Source: Sphagnum magellanicum (lineage: Eukaryota; Streptophyta; Sphagnopsida; Sphagnales; Sphagnaceae). From it: a stretch of DNA of 64,000 nt. Where the stretch lies: NCBI GenBank assembly GCA_021904315.1, contig CM038911.1, positions 14,791,390 through 14,855,389 of the forward strand, given 5' to 3'. Position 1 is the stretch's first letter. Each line of letters begins with the position of its first letter. This document shows, in pieces, positions 1,075 to 26,870 of the stretch. A program made the translations under genes and the position numbers. The notes under the pieces are model-generated. The model searched no databases. It was not told the origin of the DNA and saw nothing but the letters and a program-made list of their open reading frames with translations.

Positions 1075-1531
1075 ACATGGCGAAACAAACGGACCACGCG
1101 GCGAGCCCATTGTGGCAAATCGCCTGCTGGCTTTTGCCAAGTGGCGAGCTGTGAATCGCCACTCTACACAAACCTCAGATGAAGGAAGCTTTTTTTCTTT
1201 TTCTATTCTTTTCTCTTTTTTTTCTTTTTTTTCTTTAATTAAAAACAACCGACCGACGGCGCGCCGGAGGGTCCGTGGGAGAGGGTTTCTTATTATTTAT
1301 TTATTTATGTATTTTTAAAATATTTTTTCGGTTCACGCGAGCGGCGAAATCTGTCGTTACCGTTGTCGCCATCGTTTGTGGTCAGTGGTTATTTTCGTGG
1401 CGAAAAGGAGGCACAAAGTCAATTGTCGCCATATTTGGACAACGGGCTTTCCCAGCATGTCGCCAAAAGATAGCATGATTACTAAACTTTTCTACTTTCC
1501 TGTCCTCCCTGACCTGTAGCCAAATTTGGCT
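1075..1531 (-). promoter_or_regulatory. Promoter-boundary module copy A (GGCGA cluster plus palindrome)
   Basis: Reading toward the gene on the minus strand, the module starts with the 14-bp palindrome AGCCAAATTTGGCT (1518-1531) followed by TACAGGTC, then GAAAGTAGAAAA and a long series of GGCGA words in both orientations (at about 1078, 1100, 1116, 1141, 1155, 1343, 1368, 1398, 1426 and 1459). The same order is found at 6113 and 26547, each upstream of another gene and with the same orientation toward it. About 1 kb from the ATG. Confidence 0.55.
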
Positions 1532-1534
1532 AAA

Positions 1535-4500
1535 TCCAGACCCACCTAGGTACACTCACAAAATTGGGGGAAAAAAAAAAACACTGATTGTGGGTGGGTT
1601 GTTTCAACTTGTTTTGTTTGTTTGTTCTTGAGCTTTTTGTTTTTGAGCTTTAATTTTGTTTTTGTTAGGTTATGGTTTTGCACTTTGTTAGGTTCTTTTT
1701 GGAACACTTGAAATACAATTTTTTTTAAATAATTTTAATAATTTAATATATTTTTAAAGGGTTTGTTGATGGTTTTGTTTTGCTTCTGTTGATGGCCTTT
1801 TTTTTTCCCTTCTTTTTGTTGTTGTTGTTATAGTTTTATTCTTTGTGATTTGACCCAATAGAATTATTTGTAAAGTGTGGTCAAGGGGTTTTAGTAATGG
1901 GTTTGCCTTATACGGCTATTAATGACAAATAGAAAATACACATGTAATGATGGAAAATAATAATAAATCAATTTTTTATTGGAGAGAATATGAAGAGGAT
2001 GATAATAGCATTGCCAAGGAGAGAGTGTTGAAAGGTGGTCTTTTTCCCTTATATAGTGTTTTTTTTGGGTGTTTTAATAGGTGTGTGTTCCAAAGAAAGT
2101 ATTGTCAAGGAGAGTGAAGAGAGAGTGTTAAAAGAACTTTTAGTTCATATTTTGTCTCATGTTGTTTTTTTTTTTCCTTGCAAATTATTATTATTATTAT
2201 CTCTTTTGTTCCTTTGTCTCTTTTTTTTTTCCCCACACATTGCTATTTCTTTAATTATAGCAATCATAGAGAGGTTCATAAGAAAGGCACACAAAATAGC
2301 TCAAGTATTTTTTAAATTTTGTTGCATGTTGAATGGATGTTTATTTTATTTATTTTTTATAGATGAGGATTTTTAAAAAGGGCTTTTTGTTGGGTCTTTT
2401 TTATGTTTTAAGGGAAAACAAAATAGAGTATAAACATTCTAGTTTTTTATTGTTTCAAAAGGCATTGTGAAGAGAACGCTATGGAAAAGAGAACTTCAAT
2501 TATTGTTGAAATTTTTTTAAGTGTTGTAGGAAAGCATTGCAAAAGAATGTGTTTCTCAATTTTGGGTTGTGAGATAAAAGGTTTAGATGAATAAAGGGTT
2601 GTGTCATTTATTAGTTATGTGTGCACATCATGGATGGGCATGCTTAAGTGTTTGAAAAAAAAACTCCTTATTGCATTTGTAGTTTATGAATGGAAAATCT
2701 CAATCTTATAAATTGCTTACTTGATAATGTAAAATCATTCAACTTTTTTTTTTGAAATAAAAGCTTGCAAGTTCATATCATATCATATCATTGTCACACA
2801 AGAAAAGAGGATTTAGGTATGAGCCAAAAAGGAAGATCATGAAGGTTCATATTCTTGCACTTAAATAACCAAAAATTTTAAATAGAATGTTTTAATGTTA
2901 CTAATGCTTAAGAACTTGGAATCAATTGATTTCACTTGAATTTTATCATATTTATGTCTTGTGTAGAATTCATCCACTTAGCACACCTTTTGAAATTAGG
3001 ATAACCCATTCTAATTGTTGAGTTGCATTTAATGTTGCTAACTTTGTATATATTATTAGCCTAATAATTGAATTAATATTTATACTATCACCTTTTGGTT
3101 TAAGAGGATTTTGACTTTTAATGATGAGACTTGCATTGCATCCCTCCTTTTTTTCTCTATTCCACTTCTTCATGATATCTTTAAGAAAGGGTATTGATCC
3201 TTTGCTTTAATTAACACTCTTTCTCAAGGGGAAATGAAAGTGAATATCATTTGCATTTATTTATGTCTTGAGAATCAAGGGTTGAGCCATTATGTCATCA
3301 GGTACTAACTAAAAGGGCCTTTTTTTTGGTACTTTGCATTGGTGCATATGGCAATAAAGTTTCACAAGTTTATGTCATTATGCCCTTGTCCCATTGTGCT
3401 AATTTTTGAAAAGGATGATAAATGATTTACCATATTACCTTTATTCAAGTGTGATAATAAATTAAATTTATTTTTGGAAGTGTTGAATATTTAGATATTT
3501 TTAATTATTCTAAATGAAAAAAAAATTAAGGAAATTATTACCCTTGATGTTGAAGTTTTGGGAATTTGATCAATTTTCTATGGTGCCTGAATTTTCTATA
3601 CCATGCCATTTGATTTTCTTTTCCTAATTTGTAAGGCTTCGGGGGTTGTAAAAGGGAACAACAAGGCCGTGCACACATAACACCATCAAGAGATGGAACA
3701 TATACAAACTAACCTAAAAACTTAAGAGCTTCTTCTTTCAAGCCATCGTAGAGCAAATATCGAATAATAAACAACATTTCTCTTTTGCTATAATTGGTGG
3801 AAAATTATTTTCCCCCCTTCTTTGCAAAAAGATGTAATAGAAAGTGTTGTAGGGTCTGGATAATCTACTAATAAAACTACCTATATTTATTGTTGATATG
3901 TAATAAATTATTTTTTTTACTACCAAAGTGGATTTTGAAAAATAAAATAATTATTCGACACACAAGTGCCAAACTTCAAGGTGATTGATGATTGGTAATA
4001 AGGTCAATTGCATTTTTAAAAATACAATTTAAGAAATCTAAAAAAATGGCATTATATGCTTTCAAAGTCATTTATGTATCAAGGGAGGCTTTCCCCAAGT
4101 ACCTAAAGATAGCTTACACATAAACATGTGGAATAATTTGGATTAAATACAATTATTATAAATTACTCAAAAACATTCATGTAATGATATTCAATGTTTT
4201 CATTATTTTATCATTTTTTAAAGATTTCAAATGCCTTCAAAAATTACATAATCATATATAATAATTATTCAAACATTTGCATAATAATATAATATCTCAA
4301 GAATGTTTTCAACCATTATAAAAATTTGTAGATTCTAAAATCCATCACCTTCAATAGCTAAACATAGTCTATTGTATCATCCTATCAAGCACTCCTTTTT
4401 TTGTGTTGTCTTGCCACATTACTATTTTCATTCCATTCGTTTGCTTGATTTACCGTAAGTAAGGTATTACACATTGTGATGCATTAATCACTAAATAACA

Positions 4501-6112
4501 CAATATGTTCAATTTTTATTATATCTAACCAATGCACAAGTTAATTTTAACACATATTTTAATGATAAATGGTTAGTGACATCAAATCAACATAGTTGAA
4601 ATCCTTAATAATTTAGGCAGACATTTTCTTCAAGAAATTGTATGATGTGAATATCATCATGTCTTCTGAACCCTAAGGATGTGGTCATTGTGCCTAGGGA
4701 GATCTTCCAATATATGTAACATGGTGTTTATACACAATGGTGATGCCATTCGTTTCATATTGACAAAATAGATATTTTATGATAATTTGGTCATAGCTAG
4801 GGGAAAAAATATTAAATAAATCTAAATAAATCATCATGTTGTTGTAAAAAAATTTTGTCATGATTATTTTTTTCATTTTTTAACATCACATTAGTTACAA
4901 GGAATCCAAAAGGAATTTCACATTAAATGATGACAAGTTCTAAGAGCCTATCTAAACATTTCAAAATTGTTGCCAAACAAAACCAATAGGATAATGTCGC
5001 AACATGATTTTCAAATTTTTTGGAAATTTAATTTTTTTATTATAAAAAGTAATCAAATATTCCTCATTCATATTTATTTTTCACAATGGTGCAAATTTTT
5101 CCCAAAAAAAAAAAAAAAACTCATCATGGCATGTGTATTTGAATGTTTTCAATCACATTGTCACATTTTGAAATAATTACATTTTTTTTTTGTGTATGAT
5201 AGGTGCTTTAACCATTTTTGGATAAGGTAGTTTCATATTTAATTTTGTGTGTTATGGATTGATGACAAAATCATTTAGGGTTGGGTGCACACTTCAAGAG
5301 GTGGTAGAGAAAACAAAATGTCAAATGTTGAATGTGAATCTTTTTACAACCAAATTAAGATGAATAATCTCATCAAGTTTCTAAGGGCCAAAATCCCTTG
5401 AAGTTGTTATATTCTATAATAATTACAACACAATATCCCTACCTTACAAGGCAAGGCCAACAAAGGGATCAACTTTTAAAGGGTTTTATGGTATTATTAT
5501 CCTCAAATTTTCAAAGTCTAAAGAAAAAAATTAAATTTTGATGTAAATGTTATTAAAACCAAAGTTGGTAGGTTTCGGTCCAAGTCATAGGTCAAGTGTT
5601 AGGGTCTTTGGACCAAAGGTTCCAAGTCTTATGGAAATCACCATTGGAACTTAACCAAACAACCATCACATTTTCAAATTTGAATTAAAATATGAACCAT
5701 GGGTGCAATGGTGTTTTAAATTAGTTTAAGTTTTCTATGCAAATAAGCACAACTTTATTTTTAAAATTTTATAAACTTAATTTCACATTTTGAACAAGTT
5801 ATTGCATTTTGTTGGTTGTACATAATTAATGTTACATAATTTTTATCCTGAATTATGTGCCCTACTTGAACAAACTAATATTACACTCAAAAAAAGTTTA
5901 TTTAATTGTGTGTAATGGAAATGGAATTGGACTTGAAATTAAATTAGAGCATTTTAAATTCTTTGTGAGAATAATTTGAATTGAAGATTTTAAAAATCTA
6001 AAAATTCGATCCAAAAACAAAACTAAAGGTTCCATTCCAAACACAAAAATTTCATTATTTTTATGCTATTTTGTGAGGTACGTCGACTGGCAATCATTCA
6101 CAAGAGGAATGA
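1535..6112. other. AT-rich intergenic spacer
   Basis: AT-rich, full of T and A homopolymers and short microsatellite-like runs (for example CATAT repeats near 2777-2792). ORFs are short and low-complexity. I see no gene, RNA gene or intact mobile element. Confidence 0.6.
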
Positions 6113-6292
6113 ACCAAATTTGGCTACAGGTCAGAGAGTTAGATTTTTTAAAGAATTGTATTGCCTAAATATGGCAACTTCAGATTTTCTCCTAAAAATG
6201 TGGCGAATTTTGGATCATTTTTTCCAAATAAAATAAAATTTTAAAAATCCTGGATTTATTTTGGTCGCCGCGGAGCGAAATTTCGCCCAAAA
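6113..6292 (+). promoter_or_regulatory. Promoter-boundary module copy B
   Basis: Contains ACCAAATTTGGCTACAGGTC at 6113-6132, then AAATATGGCAAC, TGTGGCGAATTTT (about 6200) and TCGCCGCGGAGCGAAATTTCGCC (split here only in description; it lies at about 6266-6290). The order matches copy A (reverse strand) and copy C, and the module again points toward the downstream gene-like locus, whose candidate ATG is at 6996. Flanking sequence upstream (TTTGTGAGGTA, about 6070) also resembles copy C (TTTGTAAGGTA, about 26501). Confidence 0.5.
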
Positions 6293-6332
6293 AAAAAAAA
6301 AAAAAACACGGCTAGGATCCGGATTGGGTATT

Positions 6333-6680
6333 GGAGGGCCCGGATTGAAGCATGGGCAGAAGAAATGGAGGGCGCAGATTGAAGCATGGGCAAAGCCGAT
6401 GGCTTCAACTGGAGGGTCCAGATTAAAGCGTGGGCGTTTTCCGGATGAAGGGAACTGGAGGGTCCAGATTGATGGACGGGCGTAATAGATTGGCGGTAAT
6501 TGGAGGGTCCAGATTGATGGATGGGTGCAGGTATAGAGGGTCTGGATTGGAACATAGGCCTGAATAGACGGCGGGAATGGAGGGTCCGGATTGAAGAATG
6601 GAAGTAATTCGTTGAAATGGAGGGTTCCGATCGAAGGATGGGGCAACAGATTGGGTGGGAATGAAGGGTCCAGATTGAAT
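6333..6680 (+). repeat. Promoter-proximal minisatellite, about nine units
   Basis: Nine imperfect copies of a unit with the core TGGAGGGTCCAGATTGA followed by a GGATGGGC-like block. Units start near 6333, 6367, 6411, 6457, 6502, 6535, 6579, 6619 and 6663, so spacing is 34-46 bp. The array keeps reading frames open on both strands, giving repeated peptides such as PSIWTLQ on the minus strand; these are repeat artefacts, not genes. It lies between module B and the candidate start of the 7-kb locus. Confidence 0.85.
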
Positions 6681-6995
6681 GATGCGTGTGTAAGATTGGA
6701 CGACAGCCTCGGGAACTGGAGAGAGTAAAAGAAAAGGGGAATTTGGAAAGACGAGTCCGTGTCAGTCCGTCACCTTGGAGCGAAATTAGCCGGGGAATGT
6801 GAGAAAGACGAAGGGGCGAAGGGAAAGACGATGCTCCACCGACGAGTGCGGTGGGCCTTGTGTGCGTTGGTGAGATTGCACGCCCGTTGCACAGCATCGC
6901 CTCGCCGCGCAGTGTGTTGCTTTGTTTTGAGTAACGGATTGTGGGGATTCTGTCTGCGGAGTGTCGTCGGATCGTTGTTTCGGGACGCGGAGGCG

Positions 6996-7050
6996 ATGGC
7001 CAGCTTTCCAGAGAATGTTTTCTCGGGAGCAACGGTGAACGGTGAAATAC
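6996..7050 (+). CDS. Candidate first coding exon of the unidentified 7-12 kb locus
   Basis: An ATG in good context opens an 18-codon stretch (MASFPENVFSGATVNGEI) that runs into a perfect plant splice donor (AATAC|GTAAGTAA, donor at 7051). The position, just downstream of a GC-richer promoter, fits a short first exon. I could not connect it with confidence to a second exon; several AG acceptors follow (for example near 7157, 7251 and 7797). It could instead lie wholly in a 5' leader. Confidence 0.3.
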
Positions 7051-7899
7051 GTAAGTAAAGGAGCTTCATATTCTTTGTTCCAATTTGTTTTCGTCTTTTT
7101 GTTGTCTTTCTGTTTTGTTTCTCCTTCGGTCTATTGTTTGTTCCTGGAACACACGAAACAAAGGTAGTTTCTTGAAGATGCGTACGACCTCATGTGTGGA
7201 GAATTTCTCATCGAACAGAGTGATTGTTGATCAATGTACAAGAGATCCTGTAGATGTGTTCACATGTAAGAGGGGAACGCATTGTAGGAGAGAGATGCCT
7301 TGAAATAGATTAGGAGGTATTATTGTATTATTCCCTTTTCCTTTGTCTCATGGGCATTTCTCCGTTTCAGCTTCGTCTTTTAGACATCATAATGCGCCTA
7401 GCGGAGGAAGCTCAAGTTTTGTGATGACTGTTCTCGTCTGGAAAATTGTCGAGGCTGGAGTTTGTACAGTCTGCCCCGCCAAAATGCCTTTTGAATCTTC
7501 CTTTGTTGCGAATAGAGGACTATGTGAGAAGATCTGTTGATCTATGTATGGCGTTTGTTCTCTGCTTAACTTAGATTCGTTGGCCATTGTTGTTGTTTCC
7601 GGAATGGTGTGAATGAAACATTGTCTGATGATAAGCGGCTTTACGAGAATGTCATGTTCTCTGTTGCTTTGAAGTTCTCTTTCCTCGAAAACGAGATTGT
7701 AATGTTAGATCGTCGTCCTTGTGATAGGATAAGGATATCACATAGTTCAGCTCTTTTGTGAAAATCGCTATGTAAGTCCTAGCCTCCTGCGGAATCGCAG
7801 CTCTGGAGCCGATCTCGAGTCATGAAGCGGAGGCTCAAGGGACCTGATCAGTAGAAGCACAGTCAAACGGCTGGAAGGGCTCTCTGGAAGGCTTCAATC
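7051..7899 (+). other. Probable leader/intron sequence of the 7-12 kb locus
   Basis: Genic composition with pyrimidine tracts and several donor- and acceptor-like sites, but no long ORF on the plus strand. Most likely intron and untranslated exon sequence between the candidate first exon and the ORF at 7900. Confidence 0.3.
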
Positions 7900-8310
7900 A
7901 TGGCTTTGAGCAAAACAGAACGCCAAGGGATAGTGATGGGGCAGCATCCAGCCAATTCACCTGAGAATGATTCTGCTTTCTTTAAAGCTGGAGCTGCTGA
8001 TGGTTGTGCAGTAGCTTCTTCTATATCAAGCAACTCTTCCTGTAAGCTGGAGTTGCTGATTGGAGACATGGCTATAAGAATTGATGCACCTTTGTCCCAC
8101 ATGGGATCTTATAATCTTTCCATCCCATTACTTACTGGAGGGGCTGTGACTTCTCCCCCAGCTCTATATGACGACAATGTGAAGCCAATCACGGTAGAAG
8201 CAGGAGAGGCTGCAAGTCAGGCAGTTACATTTGTACCATTGGTGCTGGATCAGGAGATTTGTGAGGAATTATTGCCTTCCCTTATGCATTTGCAAGAGCT
8301 CGAGCACTAG
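7900..8310 (+). CDS. Unidentified ORF, 136 residues
   Basis: ATG-initiated ORF; the frame is open a little further upstream, so it may be part of a longer exon. The product is Ser/Ala-rich with a hydrophobic middle (about LELLIGDMAIRIDAPLSH) and an acidic end (ICEELLPSLMHLQELEH). No domain is recognised. It ends 1.4 kb before the next long ORF on the same strand. It could be a real exon of the locus, a separate small protein, or chance. Confidence is low because no homologue is recognised. Confidence 0.3.
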   Translation: MALSKTERQGIVMGQHPANSPENDSAFFKAGAADGCAVASSISSNSSCKLELLIGDMAIRIDAPLSHMGSYNLSIPLLTGGAVTSPPALYDDNVKPITVEAGEAASQAVTFVPLVLDQEICEELLPSLMHLQELEH

Positions 8311-9746
8311 AACCTTTGCACCCTCTTCTACTTACAGTATCTAGCAAAGCTTGTTGCTGAATTCATTGCAGAACAACCTTGACCTAGCTTCAGTACAAAT
8401 GGTCAAGTAATTTATCATCCAGAATGCAGAAGAGAAATCTCAGATATTTGACTTAGGGTTTATGAGTTTGTTCTCAAATTTCCACAAAGGGGTTCTATTC
8501 TTCCATTTGAGCTTCTGTAATATGGACTCATCTTGGTGCAAGAGTCCATGGGGAAACTCATTTGAGCTACTTGAGGTTGTTTGTTTTTGTATATGTGCAC
8601 CACCTGCCAATTCATAAATTCATGAGTCTTCTGCAAGATATTCAGTGGGTAGTCATGATAGCTCATACATGCTACTTGTGATGAAGGTGATAGTCTGACA
8701 CTTTATCAGAAACTCTCAATAAAGTCATGACTGCACTCATTGTCATGTTATCTTCAATTTTTTTGTTTTGGAGATTTCTTTGCAAAAATAGAAATATATT
8801 TTTTCCCATTTGGAGATGCTAACTTGTGCTGGCTCCAGCTGTGGCTCCATGCTAGAAGTTTTTATCTAATAGTTGGGACAAGGATACATTCTGAATTTGT
8901 TTTGGGAGCTGTCATACTAACTATTCTCTTGTTGTTGGGCAGAGGAACTTGCATCAAGTACTTTTTGGAGCTGCTCGCTCTGCTCAAAATACATCTCAAC
9001 AGAGGCGTCTGGTCTGGGTTGCACATACAAAACAGAGTCTTGTGGACTTCAGTTTTGCAAAGATTGTCACACAAACCTTGTGAACAAAATTTGGCAAGGA
9101 GCTGAATCTGAGTCAGCATCTTGGGACACTGTCAATACTTCGTTGAAGTGTCCGGTTGACACATAAATTCTCGCATCTTTTCATGCAATGCAGGTCATAA
9201 AACAGTGTGATGTAAATCTTGTACTTTGCAACAGTGACAGTTTTCAGTTCACTAGCCAAAATTGCCTCACATTTAAATCTTAATCGATTTCACTGTTGAA
9301 AGTTGATATGAAGATGAATGAGTGGAGACATGCAACTCTTTGTGCTTGCAGATGTAGTCAGCACTTTACACAGCTGGACATTAAACAAGCAGTGGGCAAC
9401 TGTGCTTTCCTTCACTTGCAAAATGCTTTAGTAGGTTTGCTCTGCTGTGAATTTGGAGCTGCCTGGAATAAAATTTGCCCTCAATGCAGCACCCAAGATT
9501 TTGCAGCCACCTTAGTACCATCAATAGAGTTGGAGTATCTTGGACTGAGAGAAGGTATGCCTGTTTTCCTGGAATGAATCTCTGTACCATGCTGTTTGTG
9601 TCCCAGCATTGAGGGTTTCAGGAACTGCTCTATGGTACTAGTACTGGAAAGTGTATATGCGACCATGGAAGCAACTGGACATGAAATTGAACTCCTTGTG
9701 TTGTTCCAACCTTGGATGCTGAATTTCAAATGTGTTTGGATAGGAT
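8311..9746 (+). other. Sequence between ORFs of the unidentified locus
   Basis: Composition is like the surrounding genic DNA. Only short ORFs are present (for example about 93 residues at 9296-9577) and none has a recognisable domain. Could be intron or untranslated RNA. Confidence 0.3.
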
Positions 9747-11891
9747 ATGTGTCAAACTCTTGACTGCAATTTCTGTTGGAAAGGGCCAGCAAGCTCTTCA
9801 TCTGCAAGGTCTAAGCATGAAGGTCTTGCTTTCGATGACTTTGGAATCATTTTGCAAGGCAGGGAAATCACAACTCTAGCCTCTGAAGAAATGATAGCTC
9901 CAGCTTGCAGCTCTCTAACTGATGCCCCACATCAAGTGTGTGAATCCGGGCGAAAGCAAAGCTTTTCTCTGTTCTGTGCTGTGATGGACATCAACTCAGC
10001 TTATGAAGGGCTCAAGCACTGTCTACTCACAAAAGAGTCTACGTTACATACTTTTGGTAGCTCTTGCAGCAGCAAGGTTCACACAAAAGAAGCAGCAATT
10101 TGGCCTAATGATGGTGTCAAGGAGAAGACTGGTCAGGATCTCAGGACTTCTGATTATGCCCTTTATCATGAGTTGCTTGTATCTCAGTTGTTACCCCATT
10201 GTCAGGCTCAGATATTGCCTCTAGGACCCTCAGAAATTTGTGGCATGCAACTGAGGAAACCTCCTGAGGCTGTGGATGGTATGCCAAGAATGCTTCTGCC
10301 TGCTGTTGAGGATTTGCTTTCTCCTCAGGGTTCACAACATCCAGTTGCAGCAGTGAGTGAATCTGTTTTCTTGGAACAGTCTCCTTTGGAAATTGTTTCT
10401 GGGACACATGGACAAGTCTCTCAACTACCTCGACAATGGAGTCATCAAACTGCAGCCATGCTCAGATCCCAGACATAGACATTCCTGTCATTTTCCCCTC
10501 ATTACCCGCAGTGCCTGTTAATCCAGATCAAGAGCCCCTGTATTTTGTGAACCAGGGGCCTAGATCATTGATTTTTATTGACTATTGGAGTTACAAAAGA
10601 GATACCTGGAGTATGGCAAGCCAATACTGGGGATGTGAAGCAGAAACATGTGCTGCTGCAGCCGCATGGTGGAATATGGAGTGCAGCAATTGGGCTGGAA
10701 TATCAAATGCAATGGCACAGACTGCATCAATTTGTGCATCTTTAGAAGCACACTGGGCCCAATCAGCCGAGCAGGCCAGGCTTTTGCATGAGCTCTGGGT
10801 TTTCAATTTCCATGAAATGTCTGTGTGGCAGGTCAATCTGGCCAGATCTGGTATTTGTGGACCCCCTTGCTCACTGACCAAATCATTTCCTGCTTGTCAG
10901 CCAACAGTCCAGTTGCTCAATTTGAGAAGGGAGACAGATGTTGATGGGTATCCTGATTCAAAAAGTGCAGAGATGGAATGGATTTCAGCAGGAGGTGGTG
11001 AGGTGGAGTTGTGGTCAACAGCATCTACTGCTTTTGTACCATCAGCATCTTTAGGCTCTCACTCTAAAACTCGAGCCTCCTCCCCCTCCAGCCTAGATTC
11101 CCCATTGGATGAAGGGTCAAGTAATGTACCAGAAGCTGTGGCTGCAGATAAGCTAGCTGATGAGAGATTGGCAAATACACTCTGGGATTTGACTAATATT
11201 TTGGAGGTCAATGCTGCAGTTGGTGTTGGTCTACCCACCCTTGCCACATTCTTCCTCTCTGGATTCAAACCTCTACGGGAAGTGTTAAGCTTTCTTCTTG
11301 AGAATACAAGTCTGCCAGACATCATGGCCCGAGAGTCATCTCTTGTCCAAGTATGCAAAGCAATCCCAGCTGTCAAGCACACAGTTCCCTCTTTGAAGCT
11401 CTTCAAAGTCTCCACGAGAGGGCTGAGGATATGCTCTCTGAAACTCTGGTCAGAGTGGACAATGAGCATGATGCAACTCGGAAGAATTTGAACTTCATTG
11501 GAGATCTGGAGGATGCTTTTGATATTGTGCAAGCCAGCTTGGAGCATCTGCAAACAGGTTAATAGGCTACAAATCATCTATCTCCATGATTCTGTGGCCT
11601 GGTGGTAAAATCCTCCAGCACGTACAGTGTCACTATGCAGGCCTCATTGTGCCTGTTAGGCTTTGTTGCTTGCTTTTACAGAAGCTAAATTGTATTGAAG
11701 CCCTTGCAAGCAAGCTTGTTGCAGCCCAAATGAGGATACTAGCCAACTTCTCTTATGACCTATGTCTATTTAGTGCTGGCCAACATCATGACTCAGTCTT
11801 CCCATGGCTTTCAGAAATGCAATTGATACTCAGAACTCTCAGGACACAGATGTTAGAAGAATGGTTGGCTGAAGTTTTGGGTGGATTATGA
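9747..11891 (+). pseudogene. Chain of overlapping ORFs in different frames; broken or spliced coding sequence of unknown family
   Basis: Four plus-strand ORFs follow one another: 9747-10478 (243 aa), 10436-11491 (351 aa), 11353-11562 (69 aa) and 11586-11891 (101 aa). Neighbours overlap but lie in different frames. The third ends in a heptad-like helix (SLHERAEDMLSETLVRVDNE, then more charged helix), a probable coiled coil, and the fourth has a helix-like amphipathic end (MQLILRTLRTQMLEEWLAEV). Overlaps are too short for normal introns; I tested donor/acceptor pairs at 10353/10455 and 11351/11420 and neither restores frame. A decayed gene with indels, or assembly indels in a live gene, explains this better than a single intact gene. 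No family is recognised. Confidence 0.35.
10436..11491 (+). CDS. Unidentified 351-residue ORF, Trp/Ala-rich
   Basis: Longest open frame of the unidentified locus; the frame is open from about 10360 and the first ATG is at 10436. The N-terminal third is rich in Trp, Ala and Cys (CEAETCAAAAAWWNMEC and a run around AMAQTASICASLEAHWAQ), followed by a Ser-rich linker (SPSSLDSPLDEGSSN) and a hydrophobic helical part (LPTLATFFLSGFKPLREVL). No known domain. A random open frame of this length is unlikely in sequence of this composition, so it is, or recently was, coding. The C-terminal 45 residues overlap a more protein-like frame (from 11353), suggesting the true reading leaves this frame near 11380-11400. 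Confidence 0.35.
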   Translation: MESSNCSHAQIPDIDIPVIFPSLPAVPVNPDQEPLYFVNQGPRSLIFIDYWSYKRDTWSMASQYWGCEAETCAAAAAWWNMECSNWAGISNAMAQTASICASLEAHWAQSAEQARLLHELWVFNFHEMSVWQVNLARSGICGPPCSLTKSFPACQPTVQLLNLRRETDVDGYPDSKSAEMEWISAGGGEVELWSTASTAFVPSASLGSHSKTRASSPSSLDSPLDEGSSNVPEAVAADKLADERLANTLWDLTNILEVNAAVGVGLPTLATFFLSGFKPLREVLSFLLENTSLPDIMARESSLVQVCKAIPAVKHTVPSLKLFKVSTRGLRICSLKLWSEWTMSMMQLGRI

Positions 11892-14800: not shown

Positions 14801-14999
14801 GGAATTTTATACACCAAGCATAAAATAAGATCAATTATAAGAATATTAGCATTGTGATACACCATAGACAATTTTTAATCATCTAGGACACCAACATGAA
14901 CCCAAAAAAAATGATGGTACTAAATAATTGATGTTGCATTCAGACTTGTAGTTAACAACAAAAAATTAGGGCCCAAAATCATATATATGAATTCTTTTG
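11892..14999. other. 3' flank of the unidentified locus grading into AT-rich spacer
   Basis: Up to about 12800 the composition is still genic and may be 3' untranslated sequence. From about 12830 it is AT-rich with no ORF worth reporting. A purine-rich stretch lies near 13180-13330. Confidence 0.45.
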
Positions 15000-15775
15000 T
15001 TTGTTTGTGACAGGCCATTCCGACCCGTTAATCTGCGAGGCCGATTCTGCAACCCCCCAGTTGACAAAAACGAGGTCTCGAAAACCAAGTGCGGGTCGTG
15101 GTGGCGGAGAGAAATTGGAAATGAGGTCCCACTGTTTATTTTCAAATAGGTTAAATAGGAACCAAGCAAACTGTCGTGGTGTTTGAGGATGTGTTTGTCT
15201 TAGGTAATCAGGAAGCAAATTGTCGTGGTGTTCGAGGATGTGTTTGTGCCGCCATTATAGCCACAGAAGAGGAGGAAGGTTTAGGGTTGTTAGTCTGTGA
15301 CGGGGGTTTTGGGGGGTGGGGGAGGGAGAGGCCGGTGAAGCAGCGGGCGACCAGTGTCAGTTTGTGACGGGGGTTGGATCACCACAGTTTTCGTGTACAA
15401 ACCGTCTCCACAAAGCATTGCAGCCGTCCGAAGGGTAGGAATGACGGTCGGATCGCATCTCTCTCCCACCGCACCAGAAGCGGATATAAAAACCTTCCCC
15501 TCCCCCCCCCCCCCCCCCACTACCGAAAGAACCGGTGGTTATATAGAGGAACGTGTTTTCGAAATTTTCCAAAACTTTCGGGAATCAAGGTTTAAAATAT
15601 CAGAACCGGGGTTTTGGGTTTTCTCACGTCGGGTAAAGGAGTAAATACCTGGACTGATAACCTGAGGGTGCACACGGCTGGTTTTGATACCCGCACAACG
15701 TCGGTTGGGACCACTGCACGTTCGGGGTGACTAGAGTGGCATAGCCACGAGTGTTCGAAGGTCACGGGTACCACT
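15000..15775. other. GC-rich island of unknown origin inside AT-rich spacer
   Basis: Composition changes abruptly at about 15000 and back at about 15780. The island holds a G-rich tract (15303-15330), a 17-C run (15502-15518), a GATATAAAAA box (15483), two near-identical blocks 49 bp apart (TGTCGTGGTGTTTGAGGATG at 15172 and a close copy at 15221), and two GTGACGGGGGTT blocks (about 15298 and 15365). Short ORFs on both strands do not resemble known proteins. A fragment of a retroelement LTR or a lost promoter are possible; no target-site duplication could be defined. Confidence 0.4.
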
Positions 15776-18597
15776 AGTTAGATTAATGTTTGTTGACAAG
15801 GAATTATAGGGTTTTTTTAATTGATAGGAAGGTACCTTAACTTTTTTTTTCCCTATTTTCATTCAAACCTACTAAATTTTTGTATGTAAATACCTTATCA
15901 TTAAAGGATAATGAATCTTTGTTCATGATGCATAGGCAAAAGTTAACATTGAAGTTGTGTCATGATTTTAGTGAAATTTCCTTGTCACCTTTGAACTTGT
16001 TTTTTAACTTTTCATTTCCCAATCGATTTTTTTTTTTCCTTTTGTGTTGTCTTTGAAAGTCGCTTTGTTTTTTCTTTGTATTGTTCATTATTTAGGGGTA
16101 GAAATCTCTGGACTAGTTACTACCACATGCATCCTAATAATTAATAGTTATCAGTGGTAGACTTATCATCTTTTACCAAAAGGGTGAAGCTAGTGGATTA
16201 AGTAGTTCATGTTAGTGAGTGGTTGGGGGTAATCTACCCAATCATCTAGGAGATTTTTAGGAATGGATTAAAATAAGGGCCTTATTTTCATGGGGTCAAT
16301 GTGAGTCTTGTGTGGCTTTGTGGAAAAGGAGAATTAGAAGAAGATTTGAAGAACTTTTATGACATTCGATACTTTTGTAATTGGTTGTTGGAATGAAAGA
16401 TTCTCTTGGAAAAGTGTGTGATGTAACACTAGGGAGGAAAGAGTAGTGAGAAATGTATTTGTACTTGTGTGTGATTCTCATATAAAATTGAGGAACTTCT
16501 ACATGTTTTTTGTGCATTTATTATATTAAGAAATGTGGAAAGTAATGTAGTTTAAGAGTATACAATGTGTTGTTGCCCCTTTCTCATGATAGTTATGCGT
16601 TTTCTCTAAAACGAAAAACAAGGTTGCATACTAAATGGTAGCCTTTAAAGGAGTAAGTTACTAGCTACCATAGGAAAATAGTAATTAACATGTGGTAGTA
16701 GGAAGAGGGGGAAGACTTGAAAATAGAAGTTTGTAGGCTAGGAAGGATTGTTGCAAATAACAGGTAACGGCCATGAGTGGATGCAACTCATTACAAATAG
16801 TATGCAACATTGGGGAGGTGTTTCGGAAGTGTTACAAACAATAGGTAGGGTTACCAAAAGGTCTGTAGGTGTTGTTAAGGTGGGACAATAGTTGTGGGAG
16901 GCCTATAGACCCACTAGGGCAACATCTAGGGGCATTGAAAGTGCTGTAAGAACTTGGAAAGTAATTATTCCCTAGTTATTCTCAATTCCCATGTTGCCTT
17001 TTTATATTTTCTTCTTTTGGCACCTCTAGATTAATCTACAAATAAGACAGTAGGTCTACTCTTAGACGGTAGACCCTACCTTTTTTTTTTAGTTTTTGCA
17101 TGGTTTCTTACCTATTATTTGAGTAATTATAGTAAAGTAAACAAGTGAAGGTTTTTTTTTTTTTGAATACTAAGGCATGGACCTTGTTCCTTCGGTCTTA
17201 CCTCTTGGGAGATGGTAATGATCAGAGTCCACAATTTCACCCCTTTACATCCATGAACCTTTTTTTTCTTCCTTTATGTTGCCTCTAAAAGCTTTTCTAA
17301 AAGTTTCAAGGTCTTGCAACATTACGATGTTTTCCTCCAAGTTTTTACAATATTGTTTTATTGTTATGTTTCATAGTTCAATGTCATATGTGTTCACAAT
17401 TTAAATTTCTAGGGAATTTCCTTTGCATTCTTTGTCATATATTCAAAACCTTCAAACTTTTGCAACACTGTAATGTTCTCTTCCAAGTTCTTGAAATGGG
17501 GTTCTTGGTGGTCTATCTCACAGTTCATGGCCATCTATGTTTACAATTGAAGCTATCATAGTTGAAGGTTATTGTTGTTAAAAAATGTGTCGTCTTTGAA
17601 TGTCATTATTTTCTCTTTATGTGTTTTCTTTGAAATCTCATTGTGCTTCAAGTTTTTGTAGCATCACATTGTTCTCATTCAAGTTCTTACAATGGCACTT
17701 TCGATGTTGTTATAGCAATGGTTTTTTTACTTTTTCGTCCTATGTAGTTTAATTTTTTACAATAGTGTTCTCAATGTTTTTGCAACAATGATATCTCTTT
17801 GTCAAATTTTGTTTATGTTTTTGTAACAACCTTCTCAATGTTCTTGCAACAATAATATTTCATTATGTGTCTTACATTGTTTGTGTTTTCACAACATCCT
17901 CAATGTTCTTATAATAATGATATTTCTTGGTCTTGTTTTGTTTGTGCTTTTCCTTTTTCTTCTTTTCATAATTTTCATCTTAGCCATGATGAAGTCAATA
18001 AAGATTTGCTTGTTAATCCAATTTTTCCATATCATCATGCAATTGTAGGAGTTTTTTATTCTTTACTTAGAAGTTGAGAACGAAACCTTAAATTGTATGG
18101 GAGATTTTTTAGCATATAAGAATAGGTTGTTGTAAGCCAGGAAAAATGCCATGGTCTTGCATCATTTCAATATGTCTTGCAATTTTGATGTCTTAATGAT
18201 GAAAGAGATTAGAGATTAGGTGAAAACTAGAAACACTACTTGATATTCAAAAAAATTCATGGTGCAATATGATGATCAAAACTGGGTCAAACATTTTCGA
18301 GTGACTAGAAAGGTTGTTATGTAGATCATAGAGAAGTTGTGACCTTTAATTGAAAAATAAACACAAAATATAAATTTATCATTCTTGTTGGCATTCGAGT
18401 CGCTTATTCTTTTTTCAAACTTGCCCATGGTGTTGATTATCTTCAATACAGTGAGATGTTTGCGATCAGGAAATCTTCCATCAACATGATGTTACATAAT
18501 TAAAAAATTGCAATGAATATTGTGTTTAGAAATTAGATTCATTAGCCTCAGGGTGAAAGTTGTTTCAAATCATGATAGGTTTCAAATATTGATGTGG
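15776..18597. other. AT-rich spacer with degenerate tandem repeat
   Basis: No gene. From about 17690 to 17950 the plus strand repeats a unit of roughly 65 bp built around CTCAATGTTYTTGCAACAATGATATTTC (quoted as a consensus, in parts: CTCAATGTT and TTGCAACAATGATAT), with clear starts near 17773, 17830 and 17893 and weaker ones upstream at about 17455 and 17670. Confidence 0.5.
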
Positions 18598-18602
18598 CCT
18601 CC

Positions 18603-19425
18603 TGATGCACTCCTAAGTCCTCGGATAGTCCCTAGTTGGAACTAACTTGCTCAAGTTGCGGAATTGGGAAGGACTCGAGGCATGCTCCCAGCTTCCAGCA
18701 CTAAAGGGGGGTGAGAGGGGCTTGCTGAAAGCTTCGGGATTAGACTAGGAAGATGGACAAGCTACTTAGTGATTCGGTCCTACATCCAAATCCAACCAAC
18801 AAGTTGGTTATAACTCATTCTGCACATTTTTGGTGTTAGGACTAGCCACGGGCAACCTTGGACTCACTTGACTCACCACGGCCCGAACTCCGGGGAAGCC
18901 ACCACCTTCCCCCATACAGTATTCTCTGCATCTCATTGTTGCACTTGCATCCAAATGGCACTTTTTCCTGGGACTCCCAAAGTGAAGTCCCGAAATTGTC
19001 CCAGTTTTTACTCTCGGGACTTTGGGTGTTCATAACTTCTCGCCCCGAGCTCGGATTGGGATGAGGTCTAAAACAAAGTTGTAGCTCTCCTTGAGAGCTT
19101 TCTAACGGTGTGTTGCACTTCACCTGCACGCACCAGGATCGGGTCGATTCCCGACTTTTAATGGTCGGGAGTCAAATTGCCAGTTTAACTCCCGACCCTT
19201 CTTTCGACCATAACTTGTGCTTCAGATGTCCAAATGGCTCATGTGAGGCCATTTTGGACATCACACTTCAAGACCTTTCCAACGGTATATAGAACACCTC
19301 AATGCAAGGTGTTTTGACCCTTGCAATCGCGCTCTGAGTTTTCGGGAGTTTCGGAGGACTCCCAAGTCCCATTTTCAGTAGTGTGAGTGGCGGCCTCGCA
19401 CTTCCCTCAAAGTGGGGTTGTGACA
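18603..19425 (-). mobile_element. Solo LTR of a retrotransposon with 5-bp target-site duplication
   Basis: An 823-bp GC-richer block starts with TGATGCACTCC and ends with GTTGTGACA, so it has the TG...CA termini of an LTR. It is flanked by the direct repeat CCTCC at 18598-18602 and 19426-19430, the 5-bp duplication expected for LTR-retrotransposon insertion. No internal coding region or second LTR is nearby, so it is a solo LTR left by recombination. On the minus strand it begins TGTCACAACC, a common LTR start, so I assign that orientation tentatively. Intact duplication suggests a fairly recent insertion compared with the surrounding decayed DNA. Confidence 0.8.
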
Positions 19426-20174
19426 CCTCCCTTCTATTCATGGTGCAATCGATTGCATGCATATCCACATTCAGAAACCCACTTGTGCTGTTGTTGAGAA
19501 CAATTTTTCTTATAAGTCCAAAGTTCACATCAAGCAATTGTTGATCATGAAAAGCATTTTCGTAATGTTTTTGTGGGAATACTAAGATCTATGGATGATT
19601 CTATAATTTTGCGATTTTCTAATCTTTACTAGAATGCAACCTATAATGGATTTTTTTATCATGAACATGGATCACAAGATGGCATTTGCCCCTAGATTTT
19701 AGGGACAAGGGTTACCCACTTCTACCATGGCTCATGATTCCCATGAGCAAAATGCAAATGTCAGACCTGTTATACTGAAAACAACTTATAACAAACATCT
19801 TTCAAGGGGGAGGAGTGTGGTTGATAATGTCGTTGGAACATTGAAAAAGTCGTTAAAAAATTGCTACTAAAAAATAATCTACGTATTCTTTTCATCTTGA
19901 TGTTATTACTTGTTGTTGTACATTGTATAATTTCATTTTGGATGGGCGAAATGTTGATGTGAATTTTTTGATGCTTCAGTTGGACCAAAAAGATTGTCAA
20001 GATACAATAAGACAACCTTAGAATAATATAATGGGTTCAAATGTAAGATTCAATGAAAGAAACCCTACTTTAAAAGGTAATGAACTTTCAAGATCTAATC
20101 AATGACCAATACTTTAAACATTTTTAGGAATAGACGAATGCATAAATAATGAACAAATCGTTTTTGAATTGAAA

Positions 20175-20420
20175 TGAATTTGGAAATTGGCAATTTGATT
20201 CAAATTGAATTGTTTTTTTTAGATGAATTGTCAAATTGGGTCTTCACCATCTTCACATGGTAATCTTATTCAAACTAAAATGGTCTTCTTTAAATGAAAT
20301 ATTGAATTCAATTCTCACCATTTTCAATTGGCAATATGATTCAAACTAAAATGGTCTTTTTCAAATGAAATATTGAATTCAATTCTCACCATCTTCAAAT
20401 GGCAAACTAACTCAAACTTT
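20175..20420 (+). repeat. Tandem repeat, about 71-bp period, three copies
   Basis: ATTCAAACTAAAATGGTCTT occurs at 20268 and again at 20339, each followed by AAATGAAATATTGAATTCAA and TTCTCACCATYTTCAAWTGG. A more diverged copy precedes them from about 20180. Confidence 0.8.
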
Positions 20421-21639
20421 TTTTTTTTTCCCCACATGAATTAATAGCATTTTATTTTTCATTTATATATTGATTATCCACCGTCAGTTGTTCATTAAAT
20501 AAGGATTTTAGATATGCAAATTAACAATGACATTTCTATTTTATCTTGGATGAAAATGTGACACATTGCAAAACTTAGATTGGATAAAACATTCACCATG
20601 TTTTTGTTCATTTTGTAATTTTTTTTGTCATGTTCTTTCAAATATTAAGTGCACCTTGAAGGTCTTTTCCTGAAACTTAGTGTAGTTCTTGTCAATGTCC
20701 AGTTGAATAGTGTTGATTTTGTCCATGGTGTCCATAATGTTTTTATTATGCTTATATGTAGCGTCAACGATTAGCATGAAAACCAATGTCCATTTCCTCT
20801 TTACTCATGTACTCCTTAGATTGTCAATGTGGTAAACACTAGTTATTTTTTGCTTCTCACAAGTGTTGTGAAATTGAAGAATCACCAAGGTTGATGATTT
20901 GAGGATGTTGAGGACAACCTAATGTAGAATATTGCAATAAATCATTTAAATTGATTGTATTTTCTTGATTAATTCCATGATTGATGCATATGTTCACTTG
21001 TTGAACATTTTGACTGTCCTTATGAACATTATCTTCTCCCAAAAAGTTTTATATGAAAGAGCGAAATGATTGGATAGGAAAATGTTCGTCTTGTTGTTCT
21101 TCATTCTGTTGTGTGTAAACTCCATCTCCTTGTGCATTAAAAAATTTCACATGTATTACAACACTAATGTTTTTCTCCCATTGAAATGCACAAATAACAT
21201 GATTGAATTATTTTAGCAAATGGAATTTGTTGTGCTCTTCCATGAACAAGTGCCAATAGGATGTATTGTATCAGTTCTTTTATGATAATAAAAAATCCTC
21301 TTATAATCACCATTGATGTTGTTCCATTTGTCTTTGTGAATCTTGCCATTTCTTAGTGTCTTCAAGTGTGTTTTTGACTACAGGTCTTTTAATAATTTGT
21401 TCCACCTTTTAGTTGTAGGAATCATATTTGTTATTGGATCAACAAGATTCTTCAAGTAAATGTGTTCTTTTTGTTTATTGCATATGCAAACACCTCCTTT
21501 TGACTCCAATTAATGTTGCATTGTTGTGAAGGACTTGCTCCACTTGATCTACTACCTTTGCCTTTTCTTTTTACATTGTTTATCAAATTGTTGCTTGAAT
21601 TATTCATTGCATCCATAGCCTCCATTTCTAACTAAATGT

Positions 21640-22160
21640 TTGTAATGATGACATGAAATGTTTGATGTAAAGATGATGTTTGCTATAAAAACAACAAAGA
21701 TGACATGTTGGTTGTAAAGATGATGTTTATTGCAAAGACAATAAAGGTTGCAAAAATGATGTTTGTTGTAAAGACAACATAGATGATTTGTAGAAATGAT
21801 GTTTATTATAAATACAATAAAGATTATAGATATGATCTTTATTGTAGAGGGTCTTGAACTATTAAAAACAACAAAGATTGTAAAGACAATGGTTGCAAAG
21901 AAATTGTTAGGGTCATTGCTACAAAAAGATGTTGTTCGAGATGTTTTAGCTAGAGCATGATGTTGCCAAAAAATGGTTAATGTTGACATGAAAAATGTTG
22001 ATGCCAAAGGATGGCTAATGTTGATGCTAGAAATGTTGTTGCCAAAGGACATTGCTACATGCCCAAGATGTTGTTGCAAGAGATGTTGCCAAATTAGGAC
22101 ATTGTTATAAAAGATGTTACAATAGATTTTTTGCTCAAGATGATTGCTACCATAGAAAAT
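21640..22160 (+). repeat. Degenerate short-unit tandem repeats (ATGATGTTTRTTRTAAA family)
   Basis: Units of about 36-47 bp containing ATGATGTTT, AAAGACAA and AAAGAT recur between about 21660 and 21860; a second series built on GATGTTGTTGCCAAA and AATGTTGATG follows to about 22130. The array keeps a 202-residue frame open on the minus strand, rich in Asn, His, Ile and Cys; this is a product of the repeats and not a protein gene. Confidence 0.7.
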
Positions 22161-25100
22161 TACTACAAAATAACATCTACATACATTGTTAGAAATGGGT
22201 ACATTCACAAAATAAAGACCTAGGGGTGCACCCTTAGTAAGGATTTCGATGATTGCTTATTTTGAAAGATTTTGGATATATTAGGAATATTCCATTTATA
22301 AGTTGCAAAAAGTCATAAGAAAGTCCTTTTGATTCAAAAAATGTTACATTATACTTTCATGTGAGTATTTGTTTTAAGAATTTCTCCAAAATTATATCAT
22401 TTTCAAGTCCTTGAAGAATCATTTATGAGTTATTTCAAGCAGTAAAAACACTATAAAACATTGGTTACATTGATTAATCAATGTTTTGAAAATTCAAATT
22501 TCATTAGATTCGTTTCAAATTATTGCACATGTTTCCACAATATATTAAAAACATTATCATCAAAACGTATAATAGAAATGTTCGATATTAATATTTTTTT
22601 GGCATGAAAATATGAAAAACAAAACATTGTTTATAGCTCCTATGGCTCCTATATTTGTGAATGTACGTAGATGTTTGTTATCACAAATACTACTACTAAA
22701 GACAATATTGTAGCAATATCTATTGCTAGTAACATTATTGCACCATAAGTTCTTACCAATGCAAAGACATTTTGTATTAGAGATGCGTGTGGCGATAACA
22801 AGTCACTTGTGGCAATGGTGAGGAGCATGAGAATGGAAAAATATAACCCTTGTCGATAAGTTAATAATTAGGAATCATGTGCAATAAGCTATTGATAATG
22901 TTAAGCACCACACATTCTCATTTTTCAAACATTTTTACTATGGTACTAGTAAATTAACACCTTCATTAACACAAAAAGTTAAGGCAAAAATAACATTACC
23001 ATGTAATCAAACATGCCATCTATTTATAGAAAAATTATGGTAGGTTTGAATGGTGATAGTTACTTTCAATTTTATGTTCTACATTATCTCCATGTCTAAA
23101 CACACCTTTAATAATTTCATTGCTACAAGAATGAATGTTCATTTGCATCACAAATAACTAACATATAAATGTTATGAACTAAGAATCAACACAATAATTT
23201 GATGCATCTAAAAAGAGATTAGTCACCTAAATACATTAAAAAAAAGACTTGGTGTTCAAATACACATGCAAAAATATCTCATATGATAACTTGTTTAAAT
23301 TTGGTGCCCTCAATGACCTAAACATAAATGGTAGAATCCATCATTTTCTTGTAATCCTTGATGCATTCTCAAAGCATAAAACTCATTCACTTGTTATCAA
23401 GTCACACATGATGATAGTCAATCACAAATCTTATTGTTTGGCACATCAAATGCATATGCTAATTTTCTTGGGGAGCTCCTTCATTTCCACAATAGGTAAC
23501 AATGATTGCATAGTTTTTTAGGCTTTTGGTTTTTGAATCTCAAAATGGGTGAAACTCTGGAAACTTTTCATTGAATAGATTTTCTATAAATGCGTTACAA
23601 ATTACAAAATAATTCATTGAAGTAAAATTTTGAAATCAATATATCCTACCAATGAAATCAAGTCTTGGGGTGACAATGAATGTAAACAGCTTTACATTAC
23701 TTACATCAACCAAAACATTGTTTGGGGGATATTATGTGAATGAACGTTTTTTTCCCATCTTATTATTACTTGATTTTTTAATATGCACATATTTAAGTCA
23801 CTCTAAATTTAATTATAATTTTTGGTTTTCATCAAATATTGATACCATATATTTATTTAAATTTTTAGTTTTAATATTTGAAGTTATGAGGAATGATTAT
23901 TATACAATTGAAAATGATAAGATCATATGATAAGATTTTTAATATATATATGATATGTACTTACAAATTTTCCAATTAAGTAATTGGGAGGTGGTAGAGC
24001 AAAATAATCATATAAATTTTAAGTATTTTCAAAATGATTCAAATGCTTTAATTGTCAATGGTGTGAAGAGATCCATATGCAACAAGGTTGGCACATCTAT
24101 TTGCCACATTGGTTTTTTTCAACACATCCACACAAAGTGGTAGGAATGAAATTGAAGCAAACACTAATGTCACAACAAAATGCCATGGGTCAAATATTTC
24201 AAATGGCTCAACATGCTAGCATGTTTATAAAATTCTTCCAAGACTAATGGATTAAATTGTGAATCAAGTTGTCAAAATTCTATAATGAAAGGTTCTTTCC
24301 TAGCATATAGGTTATGTAAAATGTGCAAAATCTCATTGTTGGACCAAAAAGATGAAAATCCAATATATAAAAAATGAGTTTACATTTCTACAACCTAAAC
24401 GATGCTCCCATGTTCTTATATGCCATCATACACTTCAAGGTGACATGGTGTGATAATGTCAGAATCCAATATCAAAAGAAATCTTGCCTTCGATTTGATG
24501 GTGAGGATGTCATAATAACCCTCACTTTTCCTTATGTTGTCACAAATGCTAACACATCTTAGCTATGTGATTATCTTATTAGTTGAAAAAACCTAGGATA
24601 ATCACAACATGTGATATTAGATGTATGGTTACCAATTTTTATTTTTATTTTTTTAAAAACAAAAGATGAATATGCATGAATTATGATTTGGTTTAAGCAA
24701 GAAATGCACTTTGATAGCAAAAAAACACATGGACCATGAGAATTCTTTTGTAATAACTCAAAAGCCTTGAAATTGCAACTATAAAGACATTTTTTGCATG
24801 TAACTTAATAAAGAATTGTATGATCACATGTATATTTCTTGGACCATGTTTCATTTCATGATGTTATTCTAATTATTGGTACTAAAGTTGAACTTATTGG
24901 ATCTAACATAATCTTATTATAAAATTAATTATAATTTTATATTAAAAAAACCAATATATAAACCCCATTTTTTATTTATGTATTTTTGAAAATCAAAGAA
25001 GTGTGTTCTCCCTTGGGATCAAATAAATTCTACTTGCCTTAAATTTGGAAATCAACAAGCAAAAATTTCTTATGCACCCAAAAATCATTCTTTCAAAAAA

Positions 25101-25690
25101 ATCAACAACGAGAACCCACACAAGAATTATTAAACTCGCAAGTTTTAAAATTTCACTAGATTCAAAGAGAAACATCAAATCAATCCTTGACGAAGAATTT
25201 CATTTGATAATTTTTTAAAAAAAAAATTATCTAAACTATGAACAAGATCAATGTGATGAACATATGTTGTGACATGAAAATCAAAACCTTGCTAATAAAT
25301 TCTTTGGAAAATATTGCAAGGTGTGAAATGTGATTCTTGCCATGATGAAAGAAACTCCAACCTAAGCATGCATGATTCCTAAATAAAACACCAAATCATA
25401 AATTTATGTGTGAAGTAAAACTCCATAGTGGGGACCTTCCCAAAATAAGGGCCTAGGAAAAGGTAGTTACCAAGTCTAGCCCCATATCTTGGGAAGGACC
25501 TTATAACTCAATGTTGTGGAAGTATCATAAAAATACATATTCACACCCCTTCCTTGTGGAGAATGAAAGAAAACAATTCATAAGAGCATTGCAAAATGGC
25601 AATATGTTACATAAATTTTCATAGTTGGTTGTTTCATGGTGCACTTGTTGCCTTGGGATTGCATCACCAAACCACAACACCCTTATGCCA

Positions 25691-25795
25691 TTCGACCAAC
25701 ATTACTACACAAAAAATGATTAAGTTTTTAGGGTTAGAGCCACTCGACCAACATTACTACACAAAAAATGATTTAAGTTTTTAGGGTTAGACCCA
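25691..25795 (+). repeat. Direct duplication, 52-bp period
   Basis: TCGACCAACATTACTACACA followed by AAAAATGAT and AAGTTTTTAGGGTTAGA occurs at 25692 and again at 25744, nearly identical, with one extra T in the second copy. It is a young tandem duplication in spacer DNA. Confidence 0.85.
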
Positions 25796-26495
25796 CAATC
25801 TTGCATTGACATGGAATTGTTTGGGTTGTCACAACATGCCCACAAGAATCAAAATGCATGCCATTCCCAATCTCACAATATTTTTTTAACAAAACCCTCC
25901 CCAAACCCTCACAAAAAAAAAAAAAAAAAACACCATTTTAAAAAAGTTGTAATAAGAAAAACAATGACAACACAAAGAAACACCAACACCATAAGACAAA
26001 AAAACTTTGTTAGAATTTTAAAACGTAAAACATTTTTGCATATATTTTTAAAAAACAATAGTTCAAGTTACTTTAACAAATGTTTCAAAATCCTACCTTA
26101 TCCTCCTTAATCAAATGAATGTTATAATCATTTTGTTGTCACTATTATCATTGATCACGACAATAATTTCAAATCTTTTTCTTCAAGCTAAGTAAGGGAT
26201 CCAAAAACTTTTAAGTCACCATTCTAATTGTAAGTGTTTTGGAAATCTCTCAAAGTGTTCAACAACTATTTTGTCTCACACACACACACACACAAACTTG
26301 AATCTTTTGTATGCCAAAGTAAACATATCGCATGGGTGGTAGCTTTGCTACTTGATGTGAATACATTGTAATGAAAAAGGTTTGAAATTGAGTTCTATCT
26401 CATAGCATGGATTTTTTTTTAAAAAAATATTTTAAAATTATTTTATTTTATTTTATTTTATTTTATTTTTTTAAAAAATATTTTATTTTATTTTG

Positions 26496-26870
26496 CAAGT
26501 TTGTAAGGTAGCCAAAACTGGTGATCATCAACAAGAAGACTCATTCAGCCAAATTTGGCTATAGACCTGATTTGAAAGTAGAAAATGTTAAGAATCCTTT
26601 GGCTACCTGTTGGAACCTGTTGTAAAAAGCTGGAGATGTTTATTATTCTTTTAAAAAAATTTAAATCGAAAAATCTGGCGAAATAGGGCCATTTTGTGAA
26701 TTAATTTTTTTTCCCACAAAAAAATCCTTTGTATGTGTCGAAACATAATAATACTATATGTCAAATCGGAAAAAAAAAAAAAGAAAAAAAAAGGCGAAAC
26801 CCTACCTCGCCCCTAACAAAAAAAACACTGGCGAGTTTGATGACACGTGTGCACGCCAGGTGGCGAAAGG
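26496..26870 (+). promoter_or_regulatory. Promoter-boundary module copy C, upstream of the patatin-like gene
   Basis: Carries AGCCAAATTTGGCT at 26547-26560 followed by ATAGACCT, then GAAAGTAGAAAATGTTAAGAATCC (about 26574, matching copy A), TTTGGCTACCTGTTGG, TCTGGCGAAATAG (about 26676), AAGGCGAAACCC (26791), ACTGGCGAGTTT (26829) and CCAGGTGGCGAAAGG (26857). Same order and same direction toward the gene as copies A and B. It marks the change from (TTTTA)n-rich spacer to genic sequence. Confidence 0.55.

Follow-up and report, generated by a model that had tools for sequence, protein, structure and literature searches.

A palindrome at edges of GC-rich DNA in Sphagnum magellanicum very probably marks remnants of an old, high-copy hAT-type miniature transposon

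Results

A repeated palindrome in a 64-kb window

We investigated a stretch of 64,000 nucleotides of the moss Sphagnum magellanicum (assembly GCA_021904315.1, contig CM038911.1; C5:14791390-14855389 in our genome search), in the following referred to as the window, in which the palindrome AGCCAAATTTGGCT recurs in three places at the border of AT-rich and GC-richer DNA. A first-pass annotation had described these places as a promoter-boundary module shared by three unrelated genes and had left open whether a genuine regulatory module or a transposon family accounts for them. According to the analysis presented here, the three copies (A, B, and C) are very probably relics of a single old and high-copy miniature inverted-repeat transposable element (MITE), ~160-440 bp long, non-autonomous, and of hAT type.

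The repetition itself was confirmed, with exact palindromes in copies A and C (Table 1) and a one-mismatch variant in copy B, which starts at 6112, one base left of the annotated 6113. Likewise, the related blocks were present, comprising the TAYAGRYC extension, GAAAGTAGAAAA in A and C, AAATATGGC in A and B, and TGGCGA words. With up to two mismatches allowed, the window contains four matches to the palindrome compared with 0.55 expected, a number reached in none of 100 shuffles. A profile of the family, searched in the window to E 1, matched in three places only; copies A and C had been among its seeds, copy B had not. The fourth loose palindrome match, at 9254, is absent from these profile matches. 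The annotated border position also held for all three copies, with a GC content of 28-31% in the kilobase behind and 40-50% ahead. A Pfam scan of one open reading frame (ORF) near each of the three copies gave no match. Directly downstream of copy B, at 6340-6700, diverged tandem-like units of the GGAGGGTCCAGATTGAAG type were recognized by eye.

Table 1. Positions of element copies, palindromes, and candidate duplications in the window, and of paired family copies at other loci (locus coordinates).
Feature	Position	Strand	Remarks
Copy A, 204-bp element, CAGTGTTTTTTTTTTT... to ...AAAATAACCACTG	1383..1586	-	Profile E 1.1e-24; 5' end read directly
Palindrome AGCCAAATTTGGCT of copy A, containing CCAAATTTGG	1518..1531	no strand	Exact match
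Target-site duplication candidate flanking A at its 5' end, CCCACAAT on minus strand	1587..1594	no strand	6/8 identical to other side; weak alone
Target-site duplication candidate flanking A at its 3' end, ACCACAAA on minus strand	1375..1382	no strand	6/8 identity
Copy B, approximate start (5' end decayed), 3' end ...AAAAAAAAAACACGG, CACTG variant	6050..6311	+	Profile match 6055-6215, E 9.4e-19; 3' end from direct reading
Palindrome variant AACCAAATTTGGCT of copy B, one mismatch	6112..6125	no strand	Pattern match
Copy C, approximate start (5' end blends into ATTTT-rich DNA), 3' end ...AACAAAAAAAACACTG	26475..26830	+	Profile match 26484-26648, E 7.5e-35; 3' end
Palindrome AGCCAAATTTGGCT of copy C	26547..26560	no strand	Exact match
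Paired copies, L005	4894-5068, 5515-5688
Paired copies, L010	4932-5117, 5738-5909
Paired copies, L017	5777-5890, 5902-6064
Paired copies, L008	4802-4905, 4920-5031
Paired copies, L039

The palindrome is part of a dispersed repeat

Within the whole assembly (438,994,042 bases in 31 contigs), the exact palindrome occurs 2978 times, compared with eight occurrences each of the composition-matched control palindrome AGGCAAATTTGCCT and of GACCAAATTTGGTC, a control sharing the CCAAATTTGG core with other flanks. The flanks of 25 exact copies (23 from 20 loci on contig C1, two from the window) align over ~190 bp. A profile in which the palindrome was masked retrieved all 25 at E 3.5e-10 or better; as these copies, together with 20 others, were the 45 seeds of the profile, their retrieval is partly by construction, and the profile retrieves non-seed copies as well. 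The inner segment GTGGYRATCATCCAYARGA gave 603 genome matches in comparison to zero for its reversed control. Since this segment is repeated and the flanks align, the repeated unit is the whole block beyond the palindrome alone. All 25 exact copies examined are thus one dispersed repeat.

Among 17 copies not chosen for the palindrome, three carry it exactly, which together with the 2978 exact copies suggests a family size of roughly 17,000. Extrapolation from the three copies in the 64-kb window gives about 20,000, both figures being order-of-magnitude guesses. Part of this count is segmental duplication, as the loci L012 and L014, 145 kb apart, hold near-identical element copies with the same flanks. 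At several loci, family copies are paired within ~1 kb in back-to-back, face-to-face, or tandem arrangement (Table 1), for which nested insertions or composite elements can be offered as a reading. Comparison by eye of the 3' halves at L031, L033, L034, L038, L043, and L044 with those of window copy B, L021, and others showed at least two kinds, a TGGCGA-rich one ending in CACTG and one of the ...TATATAGCCAGCAAAAAAGGCTG type, possibly representing subfamilies. At one further locus (G000, C3:3481492-3481577), the inner segment GTGGTGATCATCCACARGA is present three times in tandem with a spacing of 32-35 bp.

Element ends and target-site duplications point to the hAT superfamily

In the aligned copies, conservation sets in sharply at CAGTGTTTTT, i.e., at CAGTG. 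This word is found 45-75 bp ahead of the palindrome in 70 genome copies (exact matches, selected for that word). The element layout consists of a CAGTGTTTTT(T)n start, the palindrome some 55-85 bp further in, and an A-run with CACTG or a variant at the end, the end words of the family being CAGTGTTTTT and AAAACACTG. Copies B (6311) and C (26830) have kept recognizable 3' ends, while the 5' ends of both are decayed. Copy C was also caught by a genome search with a 3'-end pattern, which returned five matches, two of them in opposite orientation by sequence.

For the evaluation of target-site duplications we used 43 copies, namely window copy A, the copies at L015 and L019, and 40 of the 70 copies with intact 5' end. 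In each of them, the octamer preceding CAGTG was matched against the octamer following every A-rich, CACTG-like 3' end, and the null distribution was obtained by permuting flanks between copies (50,000 shuffles, p floor 2e-5). With 3' ends agreeing in at least three of five positions with CACTG, ten copies showed a duplication of at least 6/8 (null mean 1.23, p 2e-5, i.e., the floor). The strictest 3' ends gave seven copies at 6/8 (null 0.53, p 2e-5) and looser ends 12 (null 3.65, p 1.2e-4), with 7/8 duplications in four copies under the looser rule (null 0.51, p 0.001). Sliding the flank by 1-3 bp left no significant signal (p 0.06-0.85), and among the lengths 2-12, tested at up to three thresholds each, 8 bp was the only one with consistent support. 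The 12 duplication-supported copies measure 161-442 bp, one having an alternative end at 485, and CACTG or variants of it form the 3' end where the duplication is seen. L043 has an exact 8/8 duplication and a 3' end failing the end rule, and therefore stands outside these counts.

Concerning the window, the 3' end of copy A is the one selected by the duplication test, and in copy B no duplication is recognizable. The right flank of copy C is matched 7/8 at 26495, within element-aligned sequence, and this match was therefore discarded as chance.

Terminal inverted repeats of hAT elements are short and their ends are of the YARNG type. The 8-bp duplications in combination with the ends found here, CAGTG at the 5' onset and CACTG or variants at the 3' end, fit the hAT superfamily. 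The shortness of the copies, their dispersal, and the number of exact palindromes are those of a MITE, a class of dispersed, high-copy elements below about 600-1000 bp; from length and decay we infer that the element is devoid of coding capacity. Accordingly, the transposon alternative of the first-pass annotation is supported by the dispersal of the family in thousands of copies, by its constant 5' terminus and CACTG-like 3' termini, and by the 8-bp duplications.

Several observations weigh against this assignment. Under the end rules, 31-33 of the 43 copies show no duplication, and with the strictest ends a 7/8 duplication is seen in one copy only (p 0.07). The 3' ends vary and the end was chosen jointly with the duplication, the shuffles being handled alike. 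Moreover, 30 settings were tried across the duplication lengths, and length 11 at 9/11 was also nominally low (2/43, p 0.003), which we take as chance. Finally, no autonomous hAT partner with the family ends was found at five loci with long ORFs (L065-L069), the ends of which were read in part.

hAT transposase as such is present in the genome, with at least 146 matches to PF05699 (150 of 671 candidates scored). At L065 (2052-4223) and L066 (1988-4159), open frames of 724 codons match the hAT dimerization domain. Over 4.2 kb, the two loci are 97.9% identical, and the one end read, the left end, is TAGGCCTC; they belong to another hAT family, apparently a younger one. L068 and L069 have one shared end read, without CAGTG, and at L067 a family copy lies ~0.5 kb from an open frame of 652 amino acids. 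The autonomous donor of the family may be extinct.

As the likely course of events, a hAT transposase acting in trans cut the element at its CAGTG/CACTG ends. The element probably inserted often into gene flanks, and the copies, silenced after insertion, have since undergone decay. On this reading, palindrome and TGGCTA/TGGCGA words alike are internal element sequence, possibly transposase-binding repeats. The promoter-like look of the window arises because its three copies sit at edges of GC-rich DNA.

Decay of the family and the CArG box within the palindrome

In order to assess conservation of the palindrome, it was masked in the profile, and of 23 rows not chosen for it, 17 passed the coverage filters (six dropped). 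In these 17 copies, identity to the consensus is 79% for the palindrome, 72% for its flanks, and 82% for another inner block, GTGGCGATCATCCA. Two consensus CpG sites read TG/CA in 25 and 22 of all 45 aligned rows and CG in five and six, counts that include chosen copies and gapped rows. C/G columns within consensus CpG sites are kept to 52%, compared with 66% in other C/G columns. Methylated repeats are expected to decay through such CpG loss. The palindrome itself lacks CpG, which could explain its excess of ~7 points over the flanks. Given the small excess, an inner block kept equally well, and the lack of CpG, there is no good evidence for selection on the palindrome.

Every exact palindrome contains CCAAATTTGG, a perfect fit to the CC(A/T)6GG CArG box as defined in PMC6914339; in the open-access literature, no report was found joining CCAAATTTGG to both CArG box and palindrome. 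Compatible with the transposon origin, the palindrome could have been co-opted at some genes as a binding site of MADS proteins. A candidate CArG box in all exact palindromes, the location of copies at GC transitions (see below), and the spread of CArG-like motifs for PHERES1 by Arabidopsis Helitrons (PMC6914339) speak for such a use. However, the palindrome is hardly better kept than its flanks, and the missing CpG could account for that difference, so that we regard co-option as improbable.

Copies favor GC transitions without significant orientation

The placement of copies relative to genes was evaluated with GC content as a proxy for genic DNA, random points of the same loci serving as background. 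At 19 central copies, the GC step over 1 kb is 0.088 in comparison to 0.053 at random points, with none of 1000 random sets as large; over 0.5 and 2 kb, seven and zero of 1000 sets were as large. For the other copies, a larger step was found over 0.5 kb (n=19; 0.091 vs 0.059, 6/1000 sets as large), and the step was not larger than random over 1 kb (n=18; 183/1000) and 2 kb (n=14; 328/1000). The orientation of the copies showed no significant bias. The GC-rich side was ahead in 24 of the 40 usable profile matches (of 41 in total; p 0.27) and in 21 of 37 after removal of the window copies. In a first pass over the 20 C1 loci, the downstream side was GC-richer in 11 (p 0.45) and the nearest kilobase in 12 (p 0.18).

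Pfam scanning of 20 ORFs from 14 of the 20 C1 loci gave matches in seven. At four of these (L009, L011, L012, L018), the copy is located upstream, facing the gene, separated from the ORF by 1.4 to about 4 kb; L012 additionally hosts an NB-ARC ORF. At L008 (multicopper oxidase) and L020 (P450), the copy follows the gene's 3' end, read from the ORF, at a distance of ~0.5 kb, and at L021 (PurA-like ORF) at 2 kb. Thus, copies favor GC transitions, read as gene edges, and occur away from gene starts as well; a slight preference for the 5' side may exist.

A true regulatory or boundary module that is conserved on the upstream side of genes and points toward them would agree with the three window copies all facing GC-richer, probably genic, DNA, with the enrichment at GC transitions, and with the four upstream, gene-facing copies among the Pfam-supported loci. 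Nevertheless, the lack of significant orientation, the three of seven copies beyond 3' ends, and the small conservation excess of the palindrome, equalled by the GTGGCGATCATCCA block, led us to reject it as highly improbable. Of the placement proposed in the first-pass annotation, the position at GC transitions and the partly upstream location remain, while a consistent orientation toward gene starts is not supported.

Elsewhere in the window, ORFs were recognized for an F-box/KIB1-4 beta-propeller protein (49095-50327, plus strand) and for a glycosyl hydrolase family 3 C-terminal domain (54644-55309, minus strand).

CACTA elements as an alternative superfamily

The 5' end of CACTA elements begins with CACTA or CACTG. 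A CACTA-type MITE, which CACTG within the element termini and the reported rank of CACTA as commonest named repeat type of the Sphagnum genome (6.8%; PMC9946827) might suggest, was rejected as scarcely credible, as the order of the termini, CAGTG at the start and CACTG at the finish, is opposite to that of CACTA elements, and 3-bp duplications do not exceed chance (16/43 vs 13.1, p 0.19; 5/43 vs 4.2, p 0.42).

Discussion

Plant hAT-class MITEs with 8-bp duplications are already known (PMC7385995, PMC12595863). BniHAT-1/2 of Brassica nigra, with 666-673 bp, inverted repeats of 12-25 bp, and 331-434 intact copies (PMC7385995), are likewise short, non-autonomous, assigned to hAT by 8-bp duplications, and of high copy number. 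In contrast, the Sphagnum element is shorter, reaches thousands of copies, is strongly decayed, and has a recognizable inverted repeat of ~10 bp, a distinction drawn from description rather than from sequence comparison. With the MITEs that spread E2F-binding sites in Brassicaceae (PMC12595863) it shares the high copy number and a short motif fitting a transcription-factor consensus; the motif is a CArG box instead of an E2F site. Arabidopsis Helitrons connected to PHERES1 (PMC6914339) provide a parallel for transposon-borne CArG-like boxes across a plant genome. They belong to another transposon class, and for them binding and expression were measured.

By analogy with these cases, the hAT MITE might have seeded thousands of perfect CArG boxes at gene edges, a subset of which would be bound by MADS proteins, so that a single transposition burst could have contributed the wiring of a Sphagnum MADS network. 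We consider this scenario unlikely.

Judged by title and abstract, none of the papers retrieved in searches of the open-access literature deals with Sphagnum transposons, and unclassified repeats are given as the largest repeat type of the Sphagnum genome, with 7.8% (PMC9946827). Against this background, the old mini-transposon explains an apparent promoter code, and a very abundant repeat of this genome is described. If the CArG boxes were used, the family would allow transposon-driven regulatory wiring to be tested in a moss.

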